Below are positions 3,278 to 31,374 of a stretch of 32,278 nucleotides of DNA, piece after piece. The notes under the pieces were generated by a model. The model was not told the origin of the DNA. It saw only the letters and a list, made by a program, of their open reading frames with translations, and ran no database searches. The stretch's first letter is position 1, and each line of letters begins with the position of its first letter. Made by a program: the position numbers and the translations under genes. Source of the stretch: Actinotalea sp. C106 (GTDB lineage: Bacteria; Actinomycetota; Actinomycetes; Actinomycetales; Cellulomonadaceae); NCBI RefSeq assembly GCF_023630195.1, contig NZ_JALPKN010000005.1, positions 1 through 32,278 of the forward strand. Reading direction: 5' to 3'.

Positions 3278-3793
3278 TCAGCGCTCGCGTGCCGCCCAGA
3301 GCAGGCCCCGCTCGACCACCTGGCGCAGGCCGGGGATCTCGAGGTCGGCGGTCTGGTGCCCCGGGGTGCACACGAAGACCCGTCCCCGTCCCCACGTCCG
3401 GGTCCACACGGCGGGGCACGTCACCGGCTCCGACCACGGGTCCTCAGGACGGCGGGGGATGGTCGTGGTCGCGAGGACGTCGACCAGCGGGTCGGTCATG
3501 GCCCAGTACTGCTCCGAGTGGAGCCGGATCGAGGAGATGCCGGTGACGATCGGGTGATCGGCCCGCTCGGGCCGCACCTCGACGGTGTGGTCCACCAGGT
3601 CGCCCGGGTGGGCGGCGAACTGGCCGCCGACCAGCTGGTGGTAGTCGGTCGCCTGCCGGAAGGCGTCCACCACCCCGCCGTGCCACCCGGCGAAGCCGGT
3701 CCCGGCGCGGACGGCCTCGCGCAGCCCGCGGAGCTCCTCGGGCAGGATGTCGCCCATCGTCCAGCTCTGCACGACCAGGTCGGTACCGAGCAT
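3278..3793 (-). pseudogene. ThuA-like domain protein lacking its N-terminus
   Basis: From the first ATG in frame, 171 residues match the C-terminal three quarters of ThuA-like proteins, whose fold is flavodoxin/glutamine-amidotransferase-like and which sit in trehalose and 3-keto-sugar loci. Characteristic blocks are TDLVVQSWTMGD, GTGFAGWHGGVVDAF, QLVGGQFAAHPGD, SEQYWAMTDP, AVWTRTWGRGRVFV and the terminal GLLWAA. Family members normally have 45-60 more residues first, with a strand and a GGW-x-GH-like motif. Here only about 62 bp separate this ATG from the stop of the upstream ROK gene, and no other start fits. The short remnant GHDEAV just before the ATG (same frame) could be the stump of a deletion. 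The core is intact with no internal stop, so it is either a recent truncation or a short functional variant. It probably shares a transcript with the ROK gene. Confidence 0.7.
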
Positions 3794-3855: not shown

Positions 3856-5037
3856 TCAGGGGATGAGGGCCTCGATCGCCGCGGGGGACAGGACGTGCTC
3901 GGCGGCCATGGCACTCGCGCCCAGCACCCCGGCCCGTCCGCGGGTTCGGCTCCCGACGACACGCAGGTGCTGCGTGGCCAGCGGGAGGGACCGGCGGTAG
4001 ACGACCTCGCGGATCCCGGCGAGCAGGTGCTCGCCGGCCTCCGCGAGGTTTCCGCCGATGACGATGACCGACGGGTTGAGCATGCTCACGCAGGTGGCGA
4101 GGACGCTGCCGATGGTGCGGCCGGCCTCGCGGACCACGTGGCTCGCCGTGATGTCGCCGGCTCGCACCAGGCGCACGACGTCTGCGCTCGACCTCGCCGG
4201 GATCCCTTGCGAGCTCAGTGCCTCGGCGAGGGCCCGACCGCTGGCGAGCGCCTCGAGGCAGCCCGTGTTGCCGCAGCGGCAGGGGGCGTCCCCACCGCCG
4301 GCCACGGCGATGTGGCCCAGGTCGCCGGCCGCCCCCTGAGCGCCACGACGGATCTCGCCGTCGCTGATGACCCCGGCGCCGATGCCGGTCGCGACCTTGA
4401 CGAAGAGCAGGTGGTCGACGTCGGGGAACTGCGACCGGTGCTCGCCGAGGGCCATGATGTTGACGTCGTTGTCGACGAGCACCGGCACGGGGAGCCTGCC
4501 CTGGAGGTGGGCCACGACGTCGGCGCCGTCCCAGCCGGGCATGATCGGCGGGTTCATCGGTCGGCCCGAGTCGTGATCGACGGGACCGGGGAGCCCGACG
4601 CCGACGCTCACCAGGTCCTTGCTCGAGCGGCCGGCCTGCTCGACGAGCTTGAGGCCGAGCGCGGCCGCGCGGTCCAGGACGGCCTCGGGGCCGGCGGCGA
4701 TGCTGATCTCCTCGTGGTGCTCGGCCAGCACGGTCGAGGCGAGGTCGGTCACGGCCAGCCGGGCGTGGGTGGCGCCGAGGTCCACGGCGAGGACGAGCTT
4801 CGCGCTCGGCGCGAAGGCGAAGGTGGCGGGAGGGCGGCCGCCGGTCGAGCTCGCCTCCCCGGCGGGGGCGACCAGGCCCGAGGCGAGCAGGAGGTCGACC
4901 CGGGCGGCGATGGTCGAGCGGGCCTGGCCGGTCACCTGGGCGAGGTCGGCGCGGGTGCGGGGACGGCCGTCCCGGAGCAGCTGGAACATCTCGCCGACGC
5001 CGCTGGGCCGTGGCGCGAACTTGGTCAGCGCATCCAT
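3856..5037 (-). CDS. ROK-family transcriptional regulator
   Basis: A 393-residue repressor of the NagC/XylR type. An N-terminal winged helix-turn-helix (about residues 8-60, RTRADLAQVTGQARSTIAARVDLLLASGLV) is followed by a sugar-kinase-like ROK domain starting at LAVDLGATHARLAVTDL. The zinc and ROK signature CRCGNTGCLEALASG is present, with the CxCGxxGCxE cysteines, as is the glycine-rich ATGIGAGVI segment. Such proteins bind a sugar or sugar phosphate and release DNA. The ATG at 5037 is preferred; an in-frame GTG at 5055 would add six residues but has its G-rich stretch too close. It is divergent from the sugar ABC operon that begins at 5144, and the intergenic region has two perfect inverted repeats. 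The natural inference is that it controls that operon and possibly itself. The ligand is unknown. Confidence 0.93.
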   Translation of the reverse strand: MDALTKFAPRPSGVGEMFQLLRDGRPRTRADLAQVTGQARSTIAARVDLLLASGLVAPAGEASSTGGRPPATFAFAPSAKLVLAVDLGATHARLAVTDLASTVLAEHHEEISIAAGPEAVLDRAAALGLKLVEQAGRSSKDLVSVGVGLPGPVDHDSGRPMNPPIMPGWDGADVVAHLQGRLPVPVLVDNDVNIMALGEHRSQFPDVDHLLFVKVATGIGAGVISDGEIRRGAQGAAGDLGHIAVAGGGDAPCRCGNTGCLEALASGRALAEALSSQGIPARSSADVVRLVRAGDITASHVVREAGRTIGSVLATCVSMLNPSVIVIGGNLAEAGEHLLAGIREVVYRRSLPLATQHLRVVGSRTRGRAGVLGASAMAAEHVLSPAAIEALIP

Positions 5038-5068
5038 GGGCGCAGTCAAGCACACCCCCTTGAGAAGG

Positions 5069-5143: not shown

Positions 5144-6706
5144 ATGGTCAACGATGTCCAGAACGTCCCCGGCTCCCCCGGGGCGCAGCCCGGTGAGCGA
5201 CCCGGCGCCCCGATCCTCACGATGAGCGGGATCGTCAAGCACTTCCCTGGGGCCAAGGCCCTCGACGGGGTCGACCTCGAGGTCCTGCCCGGGGAGGTGC
5301 ACTGCCTGCTCGGTCAGAACGGCGCCGGCAAGTCGACCCTCATCAAGGTCCTCGCCGGTGCCCACCGCCCCGACTCCGGGACCATCACCTGGCGCGGCGA
5401 GCCCTTCGAGGTGACGACACCGGTGGCGGCCCTGCGCGCAGGCATCGCCACGATGTACCAGGAGCTCGACGTGGTCGACGGCCTGACCGTCACCGAGAAC
5501 GTCGACCTGGGCCACGAGCTCGCCTCGGCCGGGTTCACCCAGCGCCGCGCCGCGCGAGCCCGGACCGCCGAGCTCCTGGCGCGCCTGGGCCACGCCGAGA
5601 TCCCGCCAGGCCGTGAGGTCGGTCGCCTCTCAGCCGCGGGCAAGCAGGTGGTCAGCATGGCCAGGGCCCTGTCCCACGACGCACGGCTGATCGTCATGGA
5701 CGAGCCCTCGGCCGTCCTGGACTCCGAGGAGGTCGCCAACCTCTTCCGCGTGGTGCGCGACCTCACCGCGGCCGGGGTCGCGGTCGTCTACATCTCCCAC
5801 CGGCTCGACGAGATCCGCGAGGTCGGCGACCGGATCACCGTGCTCAAGGACGGCCGGACGGTCGCGACCGGGCTCGCGGTCGACCAGACCCCGACCGCGG
5901 ACCTCATCCGCCTTATGACGGGGCGGACCGTCGAGCACGCCTTCCCCGAGCGTCCCGGTGTCCCGGCCGCCGCGGACCGGCGCCTCGTGGTCACCGACCT
6001 GAGCCTGCGCGGCGTCTTCGAGGACGTGAGCATGACGGTCCGCGCGGGCGAGGTGGTGGGCCTCGCGGGGCTCGTGGGCTCGGGGCGCTCGGAGATCCTC
6101 GAGACGATCTACGGCGCGCGGCGCGCGACCAGCGGCAGCGTCGAGGTGGCTGGCCGTCGGCTGCGGGCAGGATCGGTCTCGGCCGCCGTCGGGGCCGGCA
6201 TCGGGCTGGCCCCCGAGGAGCGCAAGAGCCAGGGCCTGCTGCTCGACGAACCGGTCTACCGCAACATCACCCTCTCGACGTTCGGGCGGTTCGCCCGCGG
6301 GCCGATGCTCGACGAGCAGGCTGAGCGGACCGCGGCCCGTGAGCAGATCACCGCCCTGGACCTGCGGCCCCACGACCCGGACCGCACCGCGCGCACCCTC
6401 TCGGGGGGCAACCAGCAGAAAGCCATGCTCGCCCGCTGGCTCGTGCACGGCTGCGACGTCCTGCTGCTCGACGAGCCCACCCGCGGGGTCGACGTCGGGG
6501 CCCGCGCCGAGATCTATGGCCTGATCCGAGCCCTGGCCGACCGAGGCGCCGCCGTCGTCGTCGTCTCGAGCGAGATCGAGGAGGTCCTCGGGCTCTCCGA
6601 CGAGGTCCTCGTGATCTCGGAGGGACGCGTGGTCCACCGCTGCCGGGCAGAGCAGATCGACGAGCACGGTGTGCTCGACCTCGTCATGGAAGGAAGTGCC
6701 GCGTGA
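5144..6706 (+). CDS. Sugar ABC transporter ATP-binding protein (RbsA/MglA type)
   Basis: A 520-residue ATPase with two fused nucleotide-binding domains that energises import of a monosaccharide or small glycoside. Domain 1 has Walker A GQNGAGKST, a signature-like LSAAGKQVVSMARAL and Walker B LIVMDEPSAVL. Domain 2 has the degenerate P-loop GLVGSGRSE typical of this subfamily, the signature LSGGNQQKAMLARWL and Walker B VLLLDEPTRGVD. The start at 5144 is chosen because the frame upstream overlaps the divergent regulator and because a -10-like TAGGTT ends seven bases before it. An ATG at 5222 is a fallback. The stop overlaps the permease GTG by four bases. Family membership is secure; the sugar is not readable from the sequence. 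Confidence 0.95.
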   Translation: MVNDVQNVPGSPGAQPGERPGAPILTMSGIVKHFPGAKALDGVDLEVLPGEVHCLLGQNGAGKSTLIKVLAGAHRPDSGTITWRGEPFEVTTPVAALRAGIATMYQELDVVDGLTVTENVDLGHELASAGFTQRRAARARTAELLARLGHAEIPPGREVGRLSAAGKQVVSMARALSHDARLIVMDEPSAVLDSEEVANLFRVVRDLTAAGVAVVYISHRLDEIREVGDRITVLKDGRTVATGLAVDQTPTADLIRLMTGRTVEHAFPERPGVPAAADRRLVVTDLSLRGVFEDVSMTVRAGEVVGLAGLVGSGRSEILETIYGARRATSGSVEVAGRRLRAGSVSAAVGAGIGLAPEERKSQGLLLDEPVYRNITLSTFGRFARGPMLDEQAERTAAREQITALDLRPHDPDRTARTLSGGNQQKAMLARWLVHGCDVLLLDEPTRGVDVGARAEIYGLIRALADRGAAVVVVSSEIEEVLGLSDEVLVISEGRVVHRCRAEQIDEHGVLDLVMEGSAA

Positions 6707-7800
6707 GCGAGCAGACACCCCCCACCCTCGCGACGGCCGGGAGCGTGCCCCCCGACCCCGCCAGCCCGACCCCTCTCGAGCGCGGCCGCAGTCCCGAGCC
6801 AGCCGCCGGCGCGACGCAGCGTCCCCCGTCGGGACTGCGGCGGTTCCTGCACGGAGCCGCGGGGCGCAACATCGGCCTGGTCATCGCCCTGCTGCTGGTG
6901 TGCGTCGTCGGCGTCGCCACCGCGGGCGAGCGCTTCGTCAGCGTCGACAACCTGATGACCATCCTGCGGTACGCCGCGGTGATCGGCGTGCTCAGCATCG
7001 GGATGACCTTCGTCATCACCGGGGGCGGCATCGACCTCTCGGTCGGGTCGGTCCTCGGTCTCGCCTCGATCTGGGCCAGCACGCTCGCGACCCAGACCAT
7101 GGCCGGGGACATCCACTGGATCGTCATGGTCGGCACGGCCCTCGCGGTCGGCACCGGGGCCGGGCTGGTCAACGGTGTGCTCATCGCCTACGGCAGGGTG
7201 GTCGCGTTCATCGCGACCCTCGCCATGATGGTCGGCGCGCGGGGGCTGGCTGAGATGATCGCCAACCGGCAGACCCAGCTCGTCACGGTCGACCCCTTCC
7301 TGGACTTCTTCCGGGCGGACCTGCTCGGCATCTCGGTGCTGGTGTGGATCTTCGCGGTGGTCGCGGCGGCGGGCTGGGTGCTGCTCAACCGGACCACCTT
7401 CGGACGGCGCACCCTCGCGGTGGGTGGCAACCCCGAGGCCGCGCGCCTGGCCGGCATCAAGGTCAAGCGTCACACCATGTACCTCTACGCGATCGCCGGC
7501 CTCACCGCGGGGATCGCCGCGGTCATGATGCTGGCCCGCACGACGGCCGGCTCCTCGACCCACGGCCAGTACTACGAGCTCGAGGCCATCGCGGCCGTCG
7601 TCGTCGGGGGAACCCTGCTCGCCGGGGGCCGCGGCACGATCGTCGGCACGGTCTTCGGCGTCCTGATCTTCGCGACCCTGGCGAACGTGTTCACCCAGAA
7701 CAACCTCTCGATCTCCGCCCAGGCCGTCGCCAGGGGCGTGATCATCGTCGCCGCGGTGCTCCTGCAGCAGCGTCTGGCGGCCCGTCAGCGATCCACCTGA
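6703..7800 (+). CDS. Sugar ABC transporter permease (RbsC type)
   Basis: A 365-residue membrane protein, partner of the preceding ATPase and following binding lipoprotein. A Pro/Ala-rich cytoplasmic N-terminus of about 55 residues precedes a run of hydrophobic helices (NIGLVIALLLVCVVGVATA onward). The conserved motifs of this permease family are present: GMTFVITGGGIDLSVGSVLGL, NPEAARLAGI and the late VVVGGTLLAGGRGTIVGTVFG. Translation is probably coupled to the ATPase through the GTGA overlap. The 3' end is duplicated: the last 12 bases, including the stop codon, and a few beyond recur 17 bp downstream. Confidence 0.95.
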   Translation: MSEQTPPTLATAGSVPPDPASPTPLERGRSPEPAAGATQRPPSGLRRFLHGAAGRNIGLVIALLLVCVVGVATAGERFVSVDNLMTILRYAAVIGVLSIGMTFVITGGGIDLSVGSVLGLASIWASTLATQTMAGDIHWIVMVGTALAVGTGAGLVNGVLIAYGRVVAFIATLAMMVGARGLAEMIANRQTQLVTVDPFLDFFRADLLGISVLVWIFAVVAAAGWVLLNRTTFGRRTLAVGGNPEAARLAGIKVKRHTMYLYAIAGLTAGIAAVMMLARTTAGSSTHGQYYELEAIAAVVVGGTLLAGGRGTIVGTVFGVLIFATLANVFTQNNLSISAQAVARGVIIVAAVLLQQRLAARQRST

Positions 7801-7872: not shown

Positions 7873-8940
7873 ATGTCCGCACCACTGGAGCTGCGCCGTC
7901 GCTGGACGCTCGCCGCGGCCGCCACGGTCGCTACCGCCGCCCTCGTCACCGGCTGCACCTCGAACACCCCCGCCCCTGAGGAGGACGACACCACGACCAC
8001 CGACGGCGGTGGCGAGACCACCGGCGGCGCCAACGACGAGACCGGTGACACCGTCACGATCGGCTTCTCGGCCCCCGCGGCCGACCACGGCTGGATGGGT
8101 GCGATCACCCGGGCCGCCCTCGACGAGGCCGAGAGGTACGAGGACGTCGACCTGCGCGTGGCCGAGGCCACCAACGACGTGAACCTGCAGATCAGCCAGA
8201 TCGAGACCTTCATCAACGACGGGGTCGACGCGATCGTCCTGCTGCCCTTCGACGGTGCGGCGCTGACCGAGATCGCGATCGAGGCCATGGAGGCCGGGAT
8301 CACGGTCATCAACGTCGACCGCGAGTTCTCCAGCCCGTTCGCCGCGCGCACCACCGTGCTCGGCGACAACTACGGCATGGGGGTGAGCGCGGGCACGTAC
8401 ATCTGCGAGCAGGTCGGCGACGACCCCGACGCGGTGGTCGCCGAGATCGCCGGCATCGACTCCCTGCCCCTGACCCAGGACCGGAGCCAGGGCTTCGAGG
8501 ACGCGCTCGCGGACTGCGGCCTGGACGTCGACAACCGCGTCGCCGCGGACTTCACCGTCCAGGGCGGGCAGCAGGCCGCGGCCAACCTGCTCCAGGCGGC
8601 CCCGGAGATCGACGCGCTGTGGAACCACGACGACGACCAGGGCGTCGGCGTCATGGCCGCGATCGAGGAGGCCGGCCGGGACGAGTTCGTCATGGTCGGC
8701 GGCGCGGGCTCGGCGAACGTGATGCGCGAGATCCAGGAGGACGACTCGGTCCTCAAGGCGACGGTGATCTACCCGTCGACCCAGGCGGCCGACGGCGTGC
8801 GCCTGGCACGGCTCATCGTCCAGGGCAAGGCCATGGAGGACCTGGTCGAGGTCGAGGTGCCGCGCACCGTCCAGCTCTACGCCCCCGTCGTCACGGCGGA
8901 CAACGTCGAGGAGTACCTGCCCACGGCCTTCGAGTCCTGA
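7873..8940 (+). CDS. Sugar ABC transporter substrate-binding lipoprotein
   Basis: A 355-residue RbsB-like periplasmic-binding-protein fold (Peripla_BP_4 class), anchored outside the membrane. The N-terminus has an Arg-rich n-region (RRRW), a hydrophobic core and the lipobox LVTGC with the lipidated Cys at residue 28. An acidic, Thr-rich linker of about 35 residues follows. The mature domain begins at DTVTIGFSAPAADHGWMGAI, typical of ribose/galactose-type binders, and includes VDAIVLLPFDGAALTEI and TVINVDREF. A strong AAGGAGG lies just upstream. It is the third gene of the importer and is followed by a perfect 15-bp hairpin, often seen behind highly expressed binding-protein genes. Confidence 0.94.
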   Translation: MSAPLELRRRWTLAAAATVATAALVTGCTSNTPAPEEDDTTTTDGGGETTGGANDETGDTVTIGFSAPAADHGWMGAITRAALDEAERYEDVDLRVAEATNDVNLQISQIETFINDGVDAIVLLPFDGAALTEIAIEAMEAGITVINVDREFSSPFAARTTVLGDNYGMGVSAGTYICEQVGDDPDAVVAEIAGIDSLPLTQDRSQGFEDALADCGLDVDNRVAADFTVQGGQQAAANLLQAAPEIDALWNHDDDQGVGVMAAIEEAGRDEFVMVGGAGSANVMREIQEDDSVLKATVIYPSTQAADGVRLARLIVQGKAMEDLVEVEVPRTVQLYAPVVTADNVEEYLPTAFES

Positions 8941-9021: not shown

Positions 9022-10221
9022 ATGGTCAACCAGCAGGCCCGGCGGCTCGGCGTCGGCATGATCGGGTACTCCTTCATGGGGGCCGCCCACTCGCAGGCGT
9101 GGCGGGTCGCACCACGCTTCTTCGACCTCCCGCTGGCGCCCGAGATGACGGTGGTCGCGGGGCGCACCCGCAGCTCGGTCGAGGCCGCGGCCGCTCGGCT
9201 CGGGTGGGCCGAGGCCGAGACCGACTGGCGGCGCCTGCTCGAGCGGCCGGACGTCGACCTGGTCGACATCTGCACCCCGGGAGACACCCACGCCGAGATC
9301 GCCCTGGCGGCCCTCGCCGCAGGCAAGCACGTGCTGTGCGAGAAGCCGCTCGCCAACTCGGTCGCCGAGGCCGAGCAGATGGCCGCCGCGGCAGCCGTGG
9401 CCGCGCGGGACGGGGTGCTGGCGATGGTCGGCTTCACCTACCGGCGCGTCCCTGCCCTGTCCTTCGCGCGGCAGCTGGTCGCCGAGGGGCGGCTGGGGAC
9501 GATCCGGCACGTGCGGGCCCAGTACCTGCAGGACTGGATCGCCGACGAGGAGGCGCCGTTGTCCTGGCGGCTGGACCGCGAGAAGGCCGGCTCCGGGGCG
9601 CTGGGGGACATCGGCGCGCACGTGGTCGACCTCGCGCAGTTCATCACCGGCGAGCAGATCACGGGCGTCAGCGGCCTGCTCGAGACCTTCGTGCACGAGC
9701 GACCCGTCGCGACCGAGCACGCGGGGCTGCACGGCTCGGCCGGCAGCGAACGCGGCCCGGTGACCGTCGACGACGCGGCGGTGTTCCTCGCGCGGTTCTC
9801 GGGCGGCGGGATCGGCACCTTCGAGGCGACGCGATTCGCGTGGGGCCGCAAGAACGCGATCCGGCTCGAGATCAACGGCTCGGCCGGGTCGCTGGCCTTC
9901 GACTTCGAGGACATGAACGTCCTGCACTGGTTCGACGCCGCGGACGAGGCCCGCCTCGCCGGGTTCCGCAGGATCGTCGTGACCGAGCCCGACCACCCCT
10001 ACGTGGCCGCGTGGTGGCCCCCGGGCCACGGACTGGGCTACGAGCACGGCTTCACCCACCAGGCGGTCGACCTCGTGCGGTCACTCGCTGCGGGGGAGCA
10101 GCCCCGGCCCTCCTTCGCCGACGGCCTCGTGGTCCAGCGGGTGCTCGACGCGGTCGAGCGCAGCGCCGCGGCCGACAGCGTCTGGACGACCGTCCCGACC
10201 GACACCACCCAGGAGGACTGA
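9022..10221 (+). CDS. Gfo/Idh/MocA-family sugar oxidoreductase
   Basis: A 399-residue NAD(P)-dependent dehydrogenase expected to oxidise a hydroxyl of a sugar, cyclitol or glycoside in the cytoplasm. The N-terminal Rossmann fold starts at residue 9 ([19 protein letters not shown]), a variant of the GxGxxG loop. The family EKP motif is present ([10 protein letters not shown], about residue 114), as is the catalytic [16 protein letters not shown] block with its Asp and His at about residues 194-200. Length and domain order are normal. GGAGGAAGAGG precedes the ATG. It is followed one base later by the TIM-barrel enzyme. In related loci such enzymes convert glucosides to 3-keto-glucosides (ThuB is the classic case); the DUF1080 and ThuA neighbours point to that reaction here, but the substrate is inferred. 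Confidence 0.94.
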
Positions 10222-10222
10222 C

Positions 10223-11227
10223 ATGGCTCGACCCGTCACGCTGTTCACCGGTCAGTGGGCCGACCTCCCCTTCGAGGAGGTCGCCCGGCTGGCCTCCGAG
10301 TGGGGCTACGACGGCCTCGAGATCGCCTGCTGGGGTGACCACCTCGACCCCTGGCGCGCAGCCGAGGACGACGCGTACGTGCAGAGCCGGCTCGACATCC
10401 TCGACCGCTACGGCCTCAAGGTGTGGGCGATCTCCAACCACCTCAAGGGTCAGGCCGTGTGCGACGACCCGATCGACCAGCGGCACCGGGACATGCTCTC
10501 GGACCGGGTGTGGGGGGACGGCGACCCCGAGGGGGTCCGGCAGCGGGCCGCGGAGGAGATGAAGCTCACCGCCCGGACCGCCGCGCGGCTCGGGGTGGAC
10601 ACGGTGGTCGGGTTCACCGGGTCCTCGATCTGGAAGTACGTCGCGATGTTCCCGCCGGTCTCGACCGAGCTCGTCGACGCGGGGTACCAGGACTTCGCCG
10701 ACCGGTGGAACCCGATCCTCGACGTCTTCGACGAGGTGGGCGTCCGGTTCGCCCACGAGGTGCACCCCAGCGAGATCGCCTACGACTACTGGACCACCGT
10801 GCGGACCCTCGAGGCCATCGGCCACCGCGAGGCCTTCGGGCTCAACTGGGACCCGAGCCACTTCGTGTGGCAGGACCTGGACCCGGTGGGCTTCATGTGG
10901 GACTTCCGCGACCGGATCTACCACGTCGACTGCAAGGACGCGAAGCGCCGGGTCGGCAACGGCCGCAACGGCCGGATGGGCTCGCACCTGCCCTGGGCCG
11001 ACCCGCGCCGGGGCTGGGACTTCGTCTCGACCGGCCACGGCGACGTGCCCTGGGAGGACAGCTTCCGGATGCTCAGCACGATCGGCTACGAGGGTCCGAT
11101 CTCGGTCGAGTGGGAGGACGCGGGGATGGACCGGCTCGTCGGCGCCCCCGAGGCGCTCGAGTTCGTCCGTCGCCTGGCCTTCGACCCGCCCTCGGCCTCC
11201 TTCGACGCCGCCTTCAGCACCCGCTGA
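10223..11227 (+). CDS. Sugar phosphate isomerase/epimerase-like TIM-barrel protein
   Basis: A 334-residue xylose-isomerase-like TIM barrel (IolE / AP endonuclease 2 superfamily). The barrel opens with [27 protein letters not shown]. Likely metal ligands lie in [30 protein letters not shown] and the terminal VEWED, the usual Glu-Asp-His-Glu arrangement. The member is large because of a segment around residues 80-110 ([20 protein letters not shown]) common in the Gfo/Idh-linked subgroup. It starts one base after the oxidoreductase stop with an AGGAGG site, so the two are translated together. Possible roles are isomerisation of a keto-sugar, or elimination/hydration chemistry on a 3-keto-glycoside as reported for relatives paired with Gfo/Idh enzymes; the sequence alone does not decide. 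Confidence 0.88.
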
Positions 11228-11288
11228 GACCGACGGCGGTCCGCAGGCCCAGGTCCGCCCGGCCCGAAGCACCCGCACGCGCACGACG

Positions 11289-11323
11289 CCCTGCCCTGCC
11301 CTGCCCTGCCCTGCCCTGCCCTG
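11289..11323 (+). repeat. Seven tandem copies of CCCTG before the secreted-protein gene
   Basis: A perfect pentanucleotide tract (7 x CCCTG) occupies the 138-bp gap between the TIM-barrel gene and the secreted modular protein. It ends 42 bases before the GTG at 11366 and 31 bases before the AAGGAGG. Such tracts change copy number by slippage, and one in a leader region could alter expression in steps. The rest of the gap has no clear promoter. Confidence 0.9.
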
Positions 11324-11365: not shown

Positions 11366-14300
11366 GTGCGATCACGAACGGTGCCACGCCCGACAGGTCT
11401 CGTCGGCCTGCTCGGTCTGTCCCTGCTCGGCGCGATGATGACGACGGCAGCCCTGCCGACGCCCGCGCACGCCGACGACCTGCCCCCGCAGCAGCCCGGC
11501 GTCACCTTGCGCACGTACGTGCTGGGCGCCGCCCCGCAGGCGATCTGCGACATCAGGCCCGGCACGACGCCGAACGTCGACAAGCGGATGGCCACGATCG
11601 ACTACACGACGCACGAGCAGTTCGGGGCTGTGGACAGCTTCCGCACCGACGTGCTCGCCACCCTGCACGCCCCGGCCGACGGGGAGTACACCTTCCGACT
11701 GACCAGCGACGACGGCTCGCGTCTGCTCCTGGACGACCAGCTCGTCGTCGACCACGACGGCCTGCACGAGGCGACCGCCAAGGAGGGGGTCGTCTCCTTG
11801 GCGGCAGGTCACCACGCCCTGCTCGTCGAGTACTTCGACGCCGGCTACGACCAGGTGCTGCGCCTGGAGTGGCGCACGCCGGGTGCGGAGGACTTCGTCC
11901 TGGTGCCCGAGTCGGCGCTCAGCACCGATCGCGACGTCGTGCGGGTGACGGCCCCGGGCACGAAGTACTGCGCGGGGGACACCGACACCCCGGGCGACGG
12001 ACTGCGTCTGGACGCGGTGCACCCCGACTACACGCTCACCGATCTGCTGCCTGAGGGCTTCGAGCCGATGGTCTCGGCCCTCGACTGGACCGAGGACGGG
12101 GACCTCGTGCTCGTCACCTCCGGCTCGGTGAGCCCCTCCGGGCCCGTGCCGGACCCCGAGCCGGGGGAGGTCTTCGTCCTGGGCAACGTGACCGGGGAGA
12201 CGAGCGCCGAGGACGTGACCGTCACCAAGGTCGCCACCGGTCTGCTCAACCCGATGGGTGTTGCGGTGGTCGACGGCTCGATCTACGTCTCGGAGCGGGA
12301 CCGGCTGACCGAGCTGACCCCGGACACCGACGGCGACGGGCTCCGCGAGCACCGGACGGTGGCGGAGTGGCCCTACGGCGAGAACTTCCACGAGTTCGCG
12401 TTCGGGCTGCTGCACGACGAGGACCACTTCTACGTGACGTTGTCCGTGGCGATCGACAACGGTGGCGCGACCACCGACCCGCAGCCTGCCGAGAACCGGG
12501 GGACGAGCCTCAGGATCGACCGCGAGACAGGTGAGGTCGAGTACGTGGCCGGTGGTCTGCGCACCCCCAACGGCCTCGGTTGGGGCCCCGGTGGTGAGCT
12601 CTTCGTCATGGACAACCAGGGGGCGTGGCTGCCCTCCTCGAAGCTGGTCCACATCAAGGAAGGCCGCTTCTTCAACCACTACACGACCCCGGCGGGGCCC
12701 TTCGACGCCCAGCCGGCGACCGCGCCGGTGCTGTGGCTCCCGCAGAACGAGATCGCGAACTCGCCGAGCAACCCCGTCCTGCTCGAGGAGGGTCCGTTCG
12801 CCGGTCAGATGCTCTTCGGCGACGTCACCTACGGCGGCCTGCAGCGGGCGTTCCTCGAGGAGGTGGGCGGTGAGTACCAAGGTGCGGCCTTCCGCCACAC
12901 CGCGGGGCTCCAGGCCGGCGTCAACCGGACCGTCGTCGGGCCGGACGGCGCCATCTACGTCGGTGAGATCGGCGAGGCGGGGAACTGGAGCGAGAGCGGC
13001 AAGCTCGACTACGGGCTCCAGAAGCTCACCCCCACGGGCACCGATGCGTTCGACATGACCTCGATGAGCGTCACCGAGGACGGGTTCGCGGTCCGCTACA
13101 CCCAGCCGCTCTCGGAGGAGACCGCCCAGCGGATCAGCGCGGACGCTGCGGACGGCTACCAGGTGCAGCAGTGGCGGTACGTGCCCACGCAGCAGTACGG
13201 CGGACCGAAGATCGACGAGGAGGTGCTCGTCGTCCAGGGTGCCGAGGTGTCGTCAGACCGTCGGACCGTCCGCCTCACGATCGACGGGTTGAAGCCCGAC
13301 CGCGTGGTGCACCTGCGTTCCCCGCGGCCCTTCACCGACGTCGGCGGAACCGAGCTGTGGAGCACCGAGGCCTGGTACACGCTGAACACGATCCCCGGCT
13401 ACGAGGCCCCGGACGACCTCGGCTACCACGAGGCCGAGGAGGCCCAGATGCTCGGCGGTGCGAGCATCGCGGCCGACCACAGCGGGTACTCCGGCTCGGG
13501 CTTCACGGCTGGGCTGCAGGGCCCTGGCGCCTCCGTGACCTTCACGACCGAGGTCGACGAGGCGGGCACCGTCCCGATCCACGTGCGCTACTCCAACGGG
13601 CCGAACCCGTTCGCGGGGGCCAAGCAGATGACGCTGCGCGTCAACGGCGCGCAGGTAGCTCCGGTCGAGTTCCCGAGCACGGGGGACTGGAAGACCTGGA
13701 GCACCCTCACTCGAGACGTCGAGCTGCAGGAGGGCACCAACACGATCTCCTTCCGCTACGAGGCCGGCGATGACGGGAACGTCAACATCGACGTGCTGCG
13801 GGTGGGGGCCGAGCCTGACATCTGCTCCCCGATCACCCCGGAGGACGGCTACACCGCGATCTTCGACGGCACCCTGGCGAGCCTGGACGACTGGCGGCTG
13901 GCCGGAGCGGGTTCCTTCGGTCGCCAGTCCGACTGCAGCCTGCGCACCAGCGGTGGGCTGGGCCTGCTCTGGTACACGGCTCAGGAGTTCGAGGAGTACA
14001 GCCTCAAGCTGGACTGGAAGCTCGTGAAGGATGACAACGGTGGCGTCTTCGTCGGGTTCCCGAACCCGGGGGACGACCCGTGGGTCGCCGTCGACCAGGG
14101 CTACGAGATCCAGATCGACGCCAGCGACGCGGAGGACCGGACGACCGGCGCGATCTACACCTTCCAGGGAGCCGACGTCGAGGCGGTGGCCGAGGCGCTG
14201 AACCCCGTGGGGCAGTGGAACGCGTACGAGATCGAGGTCTCGGAAGGCACCATCCGGGTGCACCTCAACGGCGTGCTCGTCAACGACTTCGCCAGCACGG

Positions 14301-15526
14301 ATCCCGCTCGCGATCTCTCCTCGGGCTTCATCGGGGTGCAGAACCACGGCGCCGGGGAGGCGGTGTCCTACCGGGACGTGCGCATCCGGGCCACCGCGTC
14401 GCCCGTCCGCTCCTACGAGCTCGAGGACGGCGTCCTCGACGGCGGTGCGGAGGTCGGCACCGAGCACGCGGGGTACTCCGGCACCGGCTACGTGCAGGGC
14501 TTCCACAACCCCGGTGCAGGGGTGTCGACGATGGTGGCGGTCGACGCCGCCGGCACCTACCCGGTGACCTTGCGCTACGCGAACGGCCCGCACCCGTTCG
14601 AGGGCCCGAAGACGGTGTCGGTGCTGGTCGACGGCGCTGACCGCGGGCAGCTCACGTTGCCGAGCACGGGGCAGTGGACGCAGTGGTCGAGCATCACGAC
14701 GAACCTCGTCCTGCCGCAGGGCGAGAGCGCCGTGACCTTGCGGTACGCGGACGGGGACGACGGCAACGTCAACCTGGACCGGCTCCGCCTCGGCGAGCCG
14801 GTCCCCACCACGGCGCCCGTCACGACGGCGACGGTGACCCCGGAACCCGCGAACGGGTGGCACACGGTCGAACCCACGGTGACCCTGGTGGCCGAGGACG
14901 ACCAGGGCGTCGCGTCGACCGAGTACCGGGTCGACGACGGCGACTGGCTCACCTACGAGGAGCCCTTCCTCGTGGCCGGCGAGGGTGAGCGCACGGTGTC
15001 CTTCCGCTCGACAGGCACCTCGGGCACCGTCGAGGAGGTGTCGAGCATCGTGGTCGCGGTCGACACCGTGGCCCCCGAGGTGCTTCTCGAGGACGGCGCC
15101 AGGACGTACACGATCGACCAGGAGGTCGCGATCGGGTGCACCGCGACCGACCCCGCCCCCGGGTCAGGAGTCGCCTCGTCGACCTGCGCCGACCTCGCGT
15201 CCCCAGCCTGGGAGCACGGCGTGGGATCGCACACGCTGACCGCCTCGGCGACCGACGTGGCCGGAAACGTCGGGGAGGCCTCCACCGAGGTGAGCGTCAC
15301 GGTCACGTACGGGTCGCTGCGCGCCCTGGTGCACCGGTTCAGCGACAGGTGGCTCGTGACGGTCGGCCTGAACACGACCTTGACCGTGGCCGAGCACATC
15401 CGGAGCAGCACGGTGCGGCACTGGCTCCTCGCCTCCTTCGACCGGCAGGTCGCCGCCCAGACGGGCAGGGCGTTCACCGCGGAGGAGAGCAGCGTCCTGC
15501 GGGCGTCGGCGGCAGCCCTTCCCTGA
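11366..15526 (+). CDS. Secreted multimodular PA14 / propeller / CBM / DUF1080 protein
   Basis: 1386 residues from a GTG preceded by AAGGAGG. The signal peptide spans about residues 1-35 and ends ALPTPAHA. Modules in order, residues approximate: PA14 45-173 (DGEYTFRLTSDDGSRLLLDD); sorbosone/PQQ-glucose-dehydrogenase-like six-blade propeller 227-560 (NPMGVAVVDGSIYVSERD, LRTPNGLGWGPGGELFVMDN) with a beta-rich tail to about 676; CBM6/35-like 686-817 (YHEAEEAQMLGG ... NVNIDVLRV); DUF1080 3-keto-disaccharide hydrolase 827-1012 (YTAIFDGTLASLDDW, GGVFVGFPNP, GYEIQIDASD); a second CBM6/35-like 1015-1145; Ig/OmpL47-like repeats 1152-1315; and a tail resembling the FIMAH domain of actinobacterial hydrolases (FDRQVAAQTGRAFTAEE). 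There is no CxxCH heme site, no LPXTG and no C-terminal membrane helix, so it is probably released. The likely job is binding a polysaccharide or glycoside and cleaving a 3-keto linkage; the propeller's role is unknown. Confidence 0.88.
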   Translation: MRSRTVPRPTGLVGLLGLSLLGAMMTTAALPTPAHADDLPPQQPGVTLRTYVLGAAPQAICDIRPGTTPNVDKRMATIDYTTHEQFGAVDSFRTDVLATLHAPADGEYTFRLTSDDGSRLLLDDQLVVDHDGLHEATAKEGVVSLAAGHHALLVEYFDAGYDQVLRLEWRTPGAEDFVLVPESALSTDRDVVRVTAPGTKYCAGDTDTPGDGLRLDAVHPDYTLTDLLPEGFEPMVSALDWTEDGDLVLVTSGSVSPSGPVPDPEPGEVFVLGNVTGETSAEDVTVTKVATGLLNPMGVAVVDGSIYVSERDRLTELTPDTDGDGLREHRTVAEWPYGENFHEFAFGLLHDEDHFYVTLSVAIDNGGATTDPQPAENRGTSLRIDRETGEVEYVAGGLRTPNGLGWGPGGELFVMDNQGAWLPSSKLVHIKEGRFFNHYTTPAGPFDAQPATAPVLWLPQNEIANSPSNPVLLEEGPFAGQMLFGDVTYGGLQRAFLEEVGGEYQGAAFRHTAGLQAGVNRTVVGPDGAIYVGEIGEAGNWSESGKLDYGLQKLTPTGTDAFDMTSMSVTEDGFAVRYTQPLSEETAQRISADAADGYQVQQWRYVPTQQYGGPKIDEEVLVVQGAEVSSDRRTVRLTIDGLKPDRVVHLRSPRPFTDVGGTELWSTEAWYTLNTIPGYEAPDDLGYHEAEEAQMLGGASIAADHSGYSGSGFTAGLQGPGASVTFTTEVDEAGTVPIHVRYSNGPNPFAGAKQMTLRVNGAQVAPVEFPSTGDWKTWSTLTRDVELQEGTNTISFRYEAGDDGNVNIDVLRVGAEPDICSPITPEDGYTAIFDGTLASLDDWRLAGAGSFGRQSDCSLRTSGGLGLLWYTAQEFEEYSLKLDWKLVKDDNGGVFVGFPNPGDDPWVAVDQGYEIQIDASDAEDRTTGAIYTFQGADVEAVAEALNPVGQWNAYEIEVSEGTIRVHLNGVLVNDFASTDPARDLSSGFIGVQNHGAGEAVSYRDVRIRATASPVRSYELEDGVLDGGAEVGTEHAGYSGTGYVQGFHNPGAGVSTMVAVDAAGTYPVTLRYANGPHPFEGPKTVSVLVDGADRGQLTLPSTGQWTQWSSITTNLVLPQGESAVTLRYADGDDGNVNLDRLRLGEPVPTTAPVTTATVTPEPANGWHTVEPTVTLVAEDDQGVASTEYRVDDGDWLTYEEPFLVAGEGERTVSFRSTGTSGTVEEVSSIVVAVDTVAPEVLLEDGARTYTIDQEVAIGCTATDPAPGSGVASSTCADLASPAWEHGVGSHTLTASATDVAGNVGEASTEVSVTVTYGSLRALVHRFSDRWLVTVGLNTTLTVAEHIRSSTVRHWLLASFDRQVAAQTGRAFTAEESSVLRASAAALP

Positions 15527-15567
15527 CGTGAGGGCGTGCCCCCGACGGACGGGGGCACGCCCTCACG
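15527..15567 (+). terminator. 17-bp perfect terminator hairpin
   Basis: CGTGAGGGCGTGCCCCC (15527-15543) pairs perfectly with GGGGGCACGCCCTCACG (15551-15567) around a 7-nt loop. It starts at the base right after the stop of the secreted-protein gene. There is no T-run, which is common for terminators in GC-rich actinobacteria. It marks the end of the first carbohydrate island. Confidence 0.85.
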
Positions 15568-15601
15568 TGCCCTGACGCCCACGGGGGTGATACTGGGGGG
15601 C

Positions 15602-29582: not shown

Positions 29583-31304
29583 ATGAGCGAGACGAGCACC
29601 GCAGGGAACGCCGCGACCCCCGACATCAAGCCACGCAGCCGACAGGTCACGGACGGCCTCGAGGCGACCGCGGCGCGCGGCATGCTGCGCGCGGTCGGTC
29701 TGGGCGACGAGGACTTCGCCAAGCCGCAGATCGGCGTCGCGAGCTCGTGGAACGAGATCACCCCCTGCAACCTCTCCCTCGACCGGCTCGCCAAGGCGGT
29801 CAAGAACGGCGTGCACGCCAACGGCGGGTACCCCCTCGAGTTCGGCACCATCTCGGTCTCGGACGGCATCTCGATGGGCCACGAGGGGATGCACTTCTCC
29901 CTCGTGAGCCGGGACCTCATCGCCGACAGCGTCGAGACCGTGATGCAGGCCGAGCGGCTCGACGGCTCGGTGCTCCTCGCCGGGTGCGACAAGTCGCTGC
30001 CCGGCATGCTCATGGCCGCCGCCCGCCTCGACCTGGCCTCGGTGTTCCTCTACGCCGGCTCGATCGCCCCGGGCTGGGTCAAGCTCGAGGACGGCACCGA
30101 GAAGGAGGTCACGATCATCGACGCCTTCGAGGCCGTCGGCGCCTGCTCGCGTGGCCTCATGAGCCGTGAGGACGTCGACCGCATCGAGCGCGCGATCTGC
30201 CCGGGGGAGGGGGCCTGCGGCGGCATGTACACCGCCAACACCATGGCCTCGGTGGCCGAGGCCATGGGCATGTCCCTGCCGGGCTCGGCCGCGCCGCCCT
30301 CGGCCGACCGTCGGCGCGACACCTTCGCCGTCCGCTCGGGGGAAGCCGTGGTCGAGATGCTGCGGAAGGGGATCACCGCACGTCAGATCATGACCAAGGA
30401 GGCCTTCGAGAACGCGATCGCCGTGGTCATGGCCTTCGGCGGCTCGACCAACGCGGTGCTGCACCTGCTGGCCATCGCGCACGAGGCCGAGGTCGACCTC
30501 ACCCTCGCCGACTTCGCCCGGGTGGCCGAGAAGGTGCCTCACCTCGGTGACCTGAAGCCCTTCGGCCGCTACGTCATGAACGACGTCGACCGCATCGGCG
30601 GCGTGCCGGTGGTCATGAAGGCCCTCCTCGACGCGGGGCTGCTGCACGGCGACTGCCTGACGGTGACCGGGAAGACGGTCGCCGAGAACCTCGCCGACGT
30701 CGCCCCGCCCGACCCGGACGGCAAGATCCTGCGGGCGATGGACAACCCCATCCACCGCACGGGCGGGATCACGATCCTGCACGGCTCGCTCGCCCCCGAG
30801 GGGGCCGTGGTCAAGTCTGCGGGCTTCGACTCGGACGTCTTCGAGGGGACCGCGCGGGTCTTCGACCGGGAGCGCGCCGCGATGGACGCCCTCGAGGACG
30901 GCACCATCCAGGCGGGCGACGTCGTCGTCATCCGCTACGAGGGCCCCAAGGGTGGGCCCGGGATGCGTGAGATGCTCGCGATCACGGGTGCCATCAAGGG
31001 TGCGGGCCTGGGCAAGGACGTGCTCCTGCTGACCGACGGCCGCTTCTCGGGCGGGACCACGGGCCTGTGCGTGGGCCACGTCGCCCCCGAGGCCGTCGAC
31101 GGCGGACCCATCGCCTTCGTCAGGGACGGGGACCGGATCCGCCTCGACGTCGCGCACGCGACCCTCGACGTGCTCGTCGACGCCGAGGAGCTCGAGTCCC
31201 GTCGGGAGGGCTGGGCCCCGCTGCCTCCGCGCTACACGCGCGGCGTGCTCGCCAAGTACGCCAAGCTGGTCCAGTCGGCCAGCACCGGCGCCGTGCTCAT
31301 CTGA
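29583..31304 (+). CDS. ilvD: Dihydroxy-acid dehydratase
   Basis: 573 residues. It dehydrates 2,3-dihydroxy-isovalerate and 2,3-dihydroxy-3-methylvalerate to the 2-keto acids, the third common step of valine, leucine and isoleucine synthesis. The iron-sulfur cysteines are Cys62 ([11 protein letters not shown]), Cys135 ([10 protein letters not shown]) and Cys212 ([12 protein letters not shown]), the spacing of the actinobacterial [2Fe-2S]-type enzyme. The C-terminal swivel domain includes [17 protein letters not shown] and [23 protein letters not shown]. The end of the gene, from 31290 through the TGA, is the first unit of a 17-bp tandem repeat. The next biosynthetic gene, ilvB, begins about 870 bp downstream behind an attenuator. 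Confidence 0.98.
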
Positions 31305-31374
31305 CCGCCGTGCTGCTCTGACCGCCGTGCTCCTCTGACCGCCGTGCTGCTCTGACCGCCGTGCTCCTCTGACC
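31290..31374 (+). repeat. Five tandem 17-bp units carrying the ilvD stop codon
   Basis: GCCGTGCTNNTCTGACC repeats at 31290, 31307, 31324, 31341 and 31358. The variable dinucleotide is CA, GC, CC, GC, CC, so the last four units form two copies of a 34-bp unit. Unit 1 is the coding 3' end of ilvD and its TGA, and every later unit keeps the TGA. As 17 is not a multiple of three, the array places stops in all frames. The GTG of the next gene follows one base after the array. Confidence 0.93.

Follow-up and report, generated by a model that had tools for sequence, protein, structure and literature searches.

The window analysed here, a stretch of 32,278 nucleotides from Actinotalea sp. C106 (contig NZ_JALPKN010000005.1, positions 1 to 32,278), carries on its + strand, at 11366..15526, an open reading frame (ORF) that encodes a multidomain protein of 1386 amino acids with an export-type N-terminus, which we consider as a candidate for an extracellular enzyme that oxidises a glycoside and then cleaves it. 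The ORF starts with GTG, and the sequence aaggagg lies directly upstream as the ribosome site. It is a real gene and not a chance ORF, because 43 homologous ORFs, most of them full length, were recovered from other loci; in its own genome it is present as a single copy. Among the 44 ORFs, counting that of the window, L061 is the same gene as L006. Alignments A1 and A3 contain 42 sequences (L061 and the split L007 were left out), and alignment A4 of the DUF1080 domain contains 40 (L078 and L097 have no DUF1080 match).

Inspection of the N-terminus by eye, together with its hydropathy value, identified a basic start, a hydrophobic run from residue 11 and the sequence AHA before DD; residues 1–37 (11366..11476) look like a signal peptide, and the protein looks exported. 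The modules that follow, all on the + strand, begin with a PA14 domain (residues 43–177, 11492..11896; Pfam PF07691, 66.5 bits against a cut-off of 24), a six-bladed propeller at about residues 205–568 (11978..13069), delimited by AlphaFold model m2980ac278738, PDB comparison and alignment A1, and a conserved β-rich extension of the propeller (residues 569–687, 13070..13426) that carries the motifs YGGPK and EAWYTLN and was recognised from residues invariant in 42 sequences and from DSSP of the model. Cys61 and Cys202, counted with the PA14 region, are invariant across the aligned family. Two carbohydrate-binding modules (CBMs) of the CBM35/CBM6 type (residues 689–813, 13430..13804, and residues 1012–1143, 14399..14794), 45% identical to each other, flank a DUF1080 (3-keto-disaccharide hydrolase) domain (residues 828–1008, 13847..14389; Pfam, 125.1 bits against a cut-off of 26.8). 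Both were identified by Pfam, the first together with a second stretch, and by matches to PDB CBM modules, and the CBM35/CBM6 Pfam scores (87 and 78.6 bits) are, like that of PA14, over the cut-offs. Ig-like/OmpL47-type repeats (residues 1151–1312, 14816..15301) come next, for which NCBIfam NF047446 has its best stretch at residues 1171–1232 (58 bits, cut-off 40), and the chain ends in a C-terminal tail (residues 1313–1386, 15302..15523). A stretch similar to the repeats was found in 9 of the 44 proteins and a similar tail in 5, both counts including the protein itself and the duplicate pair L006/L061. The 1386-residue protein contains no CxxCH motif.

This architecture bears out most of the initial annotation, which had described one exported chain of 1386 residues with PA14, a propeller, two CBM6/35-like modules flanking DUF1080 and Ig-like repeats: the modules are supported by Pfam, NCBIfam, PDB matches and the model, and export by the reading of the N-terminus and its hydropathy. 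The extension at residues 569–687 and the operon described below are additions to that list. The FIMAH-like tail, a likeness seen by eye, did not hold up, as FIMAH (PF22888) gave no Pfam match in the protein at E up to 1. In the family, FIMAH matched one of the 42 proteins scanned, and L087 at full length scores 23.7, just below the cut-off of 24.8.

The DUF1080 domain was modelled with a pLDDT of 93.0. Its best PDB match is 9fbe (Z 22.8, 2.2 Å over 177 residues), a 3-keto-glycoside eliminase/hydratase with bound 2-hydroxy-3-keto-glucal; 8v31, 8rr2, BT2157 (3osd) and 8tda score Z 21.2–21.6, DUF1080 structures of no assigned role interleave at Z 19.3–22.2, and the first non-DUF1080 family in the fold ranking is CBM66 (Z 18.0). 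Judged by the model, the nearest named structures are eliminase/hydratases and not simple hydrolases, so the 3-keto hydrolase of the initial annotation stands as to fold and invariant residues and is refined as to the chemistry of its relatives. Thirteen residues (D834, G835, N891, G893, E914, Q916, Y931, W951, Y954, N968, Q992, H994 and R1003) are invariant in all 40 sequences of A4, and alignments show that the motifs NsG, Eiq, geWn and lQdHg recur in solved relatives. The domain is the only PF06439 match in its own genome. From its conservation and predicted fold, we take it to be active.

Two other explanations bear on this domain. The first is that DUF1080 cleaves unoxidised polysaccharide directly, so that oxidation is unnecessary; passages of PMC9007349 cite Thermogutta THTE_1561 as an endo-xanthanase/lichenase with DUF1080, and DUF1080 is proposed for xanthan in part of PMC5673643. 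We consider this improbable, given that the nearest of the solved relatives to which a role has been assigned are 3-keto eliminase/hydratases and that the other enzymes of the operon belong to 3-keto-sugar families. The second, that the protein serves as an adhesin at the surface or as a matrix protein, its two enzyme-like domains having lost their activity, would suit its several binding and Ig-like modules, but it is the least probable of the explanations considered here in view of the catabolic operon and of the invariant residues in the DUF1080 domain (40/40) and the propeller (42/42).

The propeller model, built from the 42-sequence alignment, has a pLDDT of 89.3 and a pTM of 0.90, and its predicted strands fit six blades with an N-terminal closing strand (the blade count was read from the strand list). 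Sugar dehydrogenases that use pyrroloquinoline quinone (PQQ) come first in the PDB ranking: 2ism (Z 28.8, 2.9 Å over 283 residues), 3a9g (Z 28.3) and the PQQ-bound 3das (Z 28.2, 3.2 Å over 288 residues). Soluble glucose dehydrogenase (sGDH) structures follow at Z 25.3–26.2, fungal AA12 enzymes at Z 24.3–24.9 and SMP30/lactonases from Z 24.7, and Foldseek run with the model likewise places PQQ enzymes at the top of its list. The margin in favour of the PQQ enzymes is moderate, because all compared folds are six-bladed propellers. The likeness to PQQ glucose dehydrogenases put forward in the initial annotation is borne out in this form, as the closest predicted fold.

Comparisons of sequence profiles place the propeller less sharply. 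Against PDB sequences, its profile best matches designed Pizza propellers (E 2.8e-9, one or two blades), all others having E >0.2. DUF7133 (PF23500) scores 19.2 bits on the propeller, below its cut-off of 27, and matches 26 of the 42 family members at E up to 0.001, several of them over the cut-off (for example L066, 35.9 bits); by sequence, the propeller family as a whole is near DUF7133. A PVC-type heme-binding protein (TIGR02604) was rejected at 28.1 bits against a cut-off of 122.2 and without CxxCH; below the cut-off, this model matches both the propeller family and ThuA-type GSDH proteins and forms a weak bridge between them. SMP-30/gluconolactonase (PF08450) was put aside at 13.1 bits against a cut-off of 26.3, its fold being close behind at Z 24.7; a PNG motif in blade 4 is one that we take to be a gluconolactonase-family motif.

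A set of polar residues in the propeller is strongly conserved across A1, including His342 (12389–12391, + strand) and Arg399 (12560–12562, + strand), both invariant in 42 of 42 sequences. In the model, each of the two precedes the first strand of a blade. We compared them with alignment A2, which holds 22 actinobacterial PF07995 proteins from the 30 GSDH loci fetched. The invariant H111 of A2 stands 13 residues before the invariant L124, as His342 stands 13 before Phe355, and R173 of A2 stands 17 before E190, as Arg399 stands 17 before Asp416 of the invariant DNQG loop (residues 416–419, + strand, within the propeller; alignment A1). E190 of A2 sits in the loop equivalent to the Ca-binding loop of sGDH.

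When the propeller was used as the query, 37 of 121 Cellulomonadaceae genomes, 26 of 394 genomes of the class and 9 of 396 of the phylum proved to carry it, the own genome being counted in each, which amounts to 65 actinobacterial genomes with overlaps counted once. In a Pfam scan of 42 proteins including that of the window (L087 by its first 1302 residues), PA14 was found in 42, DUF1080 in 40, CBM35 in 39 and DUF7133 in 26; PA14 with the propeller therefore forms the fixed core, DUF1080 is almost as constant and the remaining modules vary. The median pairwise difference is 0.38 for the propeller, 0.44 for PA14 and 0.63 for DUF1080, and propeller distances correlate at 0.73 with those of PA14 and at 0.57 with those of DUF1080. 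The DUF1080 domains form a close group (n=22, 52–91% identical to that of the window) and a far group (n=17, 25–33%), both standing behind the same propeller, and L087 carries a DUF1080 stretch of each group within a single chain. We read this pattern as replacement of DUF1080 under a need to keep the propeller–DUF1080 pair. L087 also has glucodextranase modules. The closest PDB match of the CBMs is 5x7o, a GH31 alpha-glucosidase-type enzyme that carries two such modules; because of this match and the modules of L087, we would guess by analogy that the substrate may be alpha-glucans.

The gene ends an operon whose content fits 3-keto-sugar catabolism. On the + strand, it is preceded by an ATP-binding cassette (ABC) ATPase (5144..6706; an open frame that matches syntenic genes elsewhere, named from reading the sequence), a sugar ABC transporter permease of the ribose/arabinose type (6703..7800; family scans), a sugar ABC transporter substrate-binding lipoprotein (7873..8940; family scans, lipobox by eye), a levoglucosan-dehydrogenase-like Gfo/Idh/MocA oxidoreductase (9022..10221; NF052479 and PDB matches) and an AP_endonuc_2 (sugar isomerase-like) enzyme (10223..11227; PF01261 and PDB matches). 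The Gfo/Idh gene scores 379.8 bits against NF052479 (levoglucosan dehydrogenase), below the equivalog cut-off of 650, and matches 4h3v (unassigned; E 2.2e-191) and 6a3f (E 1.1e-92), the latter presumably a levoglucosan dehydrogenase; its product lacks an export-type N-terminus. The AP_endonuc_2 enzyme matches 2zds, which has no assigned role (E 1.2e-176), and the 2-hydroxy-3-keto-glucal hydratase 8ro4 (E 3.6e-37), and by these matches is likely to be such a hydratase. At the stop codon of the 1386-residue protein lies a hairpin with a 19-bp stem (15526..15568, + strand; z -6.54) and no T tract, which is the probable end of the operon; a pattern scan for promoters and terminators gave no match, the hairpin included. 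Between the hydratase-like gene and the gene at 11366–15526 there is a perfect GCCCT repeat of 7.2 copies (11288–11323).

Divergent from the operon is a ROK regulator (3856..5055, − strand; PF00480, 209.3 bits), and beyond it lies a ThuA-family protein without its N-terminal part (3278..3793, − strand; PF06283 positions 45–209 of 209). The latter is about 50 N-terminal residues short compared with L005 (Actinotalea soli), which a deletion, or a fault in the assembly of this 661-contig genome, may explain. Elsewhere in the window, a 17-base tandem repeat of 5.1 copies (31289–31374) starts at the 3′ end of a gene resembling those for dihydroxy-acid dehydratase (named by eye). A role in defence was put aside, PADLOC giving no match at E up to 0.001.

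Neighbourhoods were counted over 43 loci (L061 left out), in stretches of at most 24 kb except for the 32-kb window; stretches of less than 20 kb are those of L007, L074, L084, L094, L095 and L096. A cassette of substrate-binding protein, ABC transporter and Gfo/Idh genes with a ROK gene lies near the gene in 6 of the 43 loci, the window included, in two layouts: the gene is last in the row in the window, L005 and L007, and stands beyond the ROK gene in L062, L064 and L065. In L094, a ROK gene and a hydratase gene are near the gene. Since it is not seen at the remaining loci, the cassette represents one of several settings in which the gene occurs.

Breakage of glycosidic bonds by the 3-keto route, which needs no classical glycosidase, has been recognised in recent years. 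From the computed domain order, export-type N-terminus, DUF1080 fold with its invariant residues, operon content and propeller fold, we infer an oxidation with its cofactor, oxidised position and electron acceptor, an order of steps, a substrate and roles of the neighbours on that substrate, and we propose that the protein is a secreted two-step glycan-cleaving enzyme, a proposal that we regard as nearly an even call. The CBMs would hold a glycoside substrate outside the cell, where the propeller would oxidise a ring hydroxyl, presumably that at C3 and probably by means of a quinone-type cofactor bound at a site of the Ca type, and the DUF1080 domain would then cleave the 3-keto sugar at its glycosidic bond, by elimination, hydration or both, to give 2-hydroxy-3-keto-glucal or 3-keto-glucose. 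The ABC transporter would import the product, the AP_endonuc_2 enzyme would hydrate the glucal and the Gfo/Idh enzyme would reduce the 3-keto sugar to a normal hexose. Chains of oxidation, elimination, hydration and reduction are described in parts of PMC7676230 and PMC10628242. The cleavage half of this proposal is well founded, and the oxidation half is the best reading available, its probability a little under even. Its most specific form, a one-chain extracellular depolymerase in which a propeller that acts as a glycoside 3-dehydrogenase, its quinone site being new or altered, is joined to a 3-keto-glycoside eliminase and CBMs, we put forward tentatively, as appreciably short of even.

The propeller is favoured as the oxidant on two grounds: (i) the 3-keto substrate must arise outside the cell, because we assume a single-membraned cell and because the DUF1080 protein, unlike the Gfo/Idh enzyme, has the look of an exported one, and (ii) the own genome, which is 99.4% complete, has no match to PF00732 (GMC oxidoreductase) or PF13618 (Gluconate_2-dh3), two families with known members that produce 3-keto sugars outside the cytoplasm and for both of which a Caulobacter control was positive. 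We take LacABC, the glucoside 3-dehydrogenase of Caulobacter, to be of the GMC/Gluconate_2-dh3 kind, and PF13618 to be the family of LacC. Locally, the propeller is thus the strongest candidate for the oxidant proposed to act outside the cell.

A number of observations weigh against the proposal, beginning with the propeller itself. PF07995 (GSDH) gave no Pfam match in the 1386-residue protein at E up to 1. The sGDH residues named in passages of PMC6881789 and PMC6881810 (His144, the Arg228/Asn229 pair, Gly247/Pro248, Lys377 and Arg408) were mapped onto the propeller by their motifs, their spacing and the region that the structural match covers, and we ourselves assigned the positions of Lys377 and the two Arg in A2. 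By this unproven mapping, the catalytic His144 and Arg228 would correspond to His342 and Arg399, Asn229 to Thr400, Lys377 to Thr488, and the two C-terminal Arg of the GRLR motif to Gly518 and Asn520. The other Arg of this pair in sGDH is taken to be Arg406. Every hhalign mode in which the propeller and GSDH alignments were compared returned a register that was shifted and partial, with a preference for other blades; the mapping therefore rests on motifs, spacing and structural span, and hhalign neither confirms nor replaces it. Known sGDH enzymes, moreover, oxidise C1, according to part of PMC6881810. By the motif mapping, the catalytic His/Arg pair seems to be kept and the PQQ-holding cation set lost or moved: of the cofactor site that the initial annotation proposed to inspect, the His and Arg have candidate counterparts, and Asn229, Lys377 and the Arg pair seem to be replaced. 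As AA12 enzymes also lack Lys377 and bind PQQ differently (passages of PMC6881789), loss of these residues is not proof that PQQ is absent. We do not class the propeller as a PQQ dehydrogenase; given its residues and modelled fold, it may work like one.

The supply of PQQ and the presence of other dehydrogenases also count against oxidation by the propeller. PqqE was found over the cut-off in none of the 121 family genomes and in 9 of 388 genomes of the class, which shows that the search is able to find it. Two of the 26 propeller carriers of the class, G179 and G727, are among these nine (the class draws of 394 genomes for the propeller and 388 for PqqE overlap and are not identical), and none of 14 GSDH-positive genomes also searched had PqqE over the cut-off, so that co-occurrence of PqqE with the propeller does not discriminate. 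Because PQQ could be acquired from outside and ordinary GSDH genes occur without PqqE, its scarcity is weak evidence against PQQ. Elsewhere in the own genome, a GSDH lipoprotein of the exported type carries the usual motifs, and 8 of the 43 neighbourhoods contain a separate GSDH gene. Judged by eye, this looks above chance against a background of 45 PF07995 matches in 39 relatives (29 of the 39 genomes positive, 9 of the matches in G419). Six of the eight are nearer to a ThuA-GSDH/GSDH-PKD-CBM6 profile than to the ordinary GSDH profile, the former having itself been built with genes of L062, L065 and L066, three of the eight. ThuA-GSDH-PKD-CBM6 giants follow the Gfo gene in L062 and L065, and L064 probably has a ThuA-GSDH giant just beyond its stretch, since the ORF of L136 shares its N-terminus with that of L135. 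In L134 (2188–7800, 1870 amino acids) and L135 (2066–7411, 1781 amino acids), ORFs of ThuA-GSDH-PKD-CBM6-DUF1349 composition stand after the Gfo/Idh gene of the same cassette. In G419, of the same family, several of the nine PF07995 matches lie in long multidomain ORFs.

Distribution adds further counterpoints. The whole gene is patchy in the genus: at an E-value limit of 1e-30, 3 of 19 genomes have it. One of these, G005 (Actinotalea ferrariae S/N-202-OC-R2), has it split over two frames. The split in this homologue (L007, 10001–14153) lies near residue 571 and marks either a pseudogene or a sequencing fault. Of the 43 loci, 37 show no ABC/Gfo cassette, and in L078 and L097 (G179 and G702, which belong to a different family within the class) PA14 and the propeller occur with no DUF1080 match. 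In L078, a ricin-type lectin stands in the place of DUF1080.

In a further explanation, the propeller only binds its ligand or catalyses a reaction other than a redox one, and the 3-keto-glycosides on which DUF1080 acts are made by another exported dehydrogenase, for example the GSDH lipoprotein of the own genome or the neighbouring GSDH proteins of relatives. The replaced PQQ-holding residues, the missing PF07995 match, the separate GSDH genes together with the single ordinary GSDH lipoprotein of the own genome, and the small number of PqqE genes in family and class genomes would all agree with it. We nevertheless judge it doubtful, though a serious contender, considering (i) the strong conservation of the polar set of the propeller with His342 and Arg399, (ii) the window's operon, in which no other exported oxidant was seen, and (iii) the 35 of 43 loci with no GSDH gene in the stretch examined (5 of the 35 stretches being shorter than 20 kb). 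Oxidation by the propeller followed by cleavage by DUF1080, the combination suggested in the initial annotation, is supported in part: the architecture, the DUF1080 fold, the operon, the propeller fold and the topology speak for it, and the PQQ residues, the missing PF07995 match, PqqE and the separate GSDH genes weaken it.

The propeller–DUF1080 family addresses the question of how bacteria without a periplasm would make a 3-keto sugar outside the cell, and it offers a single expressible protein in which oxidant and eliminase may coexist. If our proposal is true, the protein would be a single-membrane counterpart of LacABC plus DUF1080, oxidation by the propeller would establish a class of oxidative carbohydrate enzyme that is new and, as far as is known from the literature searched, this would be the first propeller enzyme to make 3-keto-glycosides; if the propeller is not the oxidant, the separate GSDH proteins would be implicated. 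A protein that combines PA14, propeller and DUF1080 was not found described in the open-access literature, outside which most subscription papers lie, and a text search of the Cellulomonas secretome paper PMC4780727 on selected terms gave no match.

Among known systems, the closest parallel in logic is the lactose pathway of Caulobacter, in which the periplasmic glucoside 3-dehydrogenase LacABC acts together with DUF1080 (passages of PMC9007349). In both systems, 3-oxidation and DUF1080 cleavage are proposed to be extracytoplasmic and genes for uptake or further steps are nearby; LacABC, however, is a separate membrane-bound dehydrogenase, whereas the candidate oxidant here is a propeller in the same chain. 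The levoglucosan Lgd pathway, as described in parts of PMC7676230 and PMC10066097, likewise has Gfo/Idh, a PF01261 enzyme in the hydratase role, a sugar ABC importer and ROK neighbours. It acts on imported levoglucosan, whereas the operon described here adds an exported DUF1080 protein and has a Gfo enzyme that falls below the equivalog cut-off. In the passages of PMC12055684 and PMC6881789 that concern them, respectively, the Teredinibacter CBM-GSDH-cytochrome c proteins and the fungal AA12 pyranose dehydrogenase have, like the protein described here, an exported propeller domain of the dehydrogenase type joined to CBMs; this protein, however, has no CxxCH motif, has DUF1080 and seems to carry other residues at the PQQ positions. 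The ThuA-GSDH-PKD-CBM6 giants of L134 and L135 also combine a GSDH-type propeller with CBMs beside the same Gfo/ABC cassette, but have a true PF07995 match and no DUF1080. With 9fbe, 8rr2, BT2157 (3osd), AL2 (8v31) and 8tda, the protein shares the DUF1080 fold and the conserved motifs; a Bacteroides/Alistipes pathway was reportedly the subject of work in 2024. These solved DUF1080 chains comprise about 265–281 residues, whereas here the domain is one module of a 1386-residue protein.

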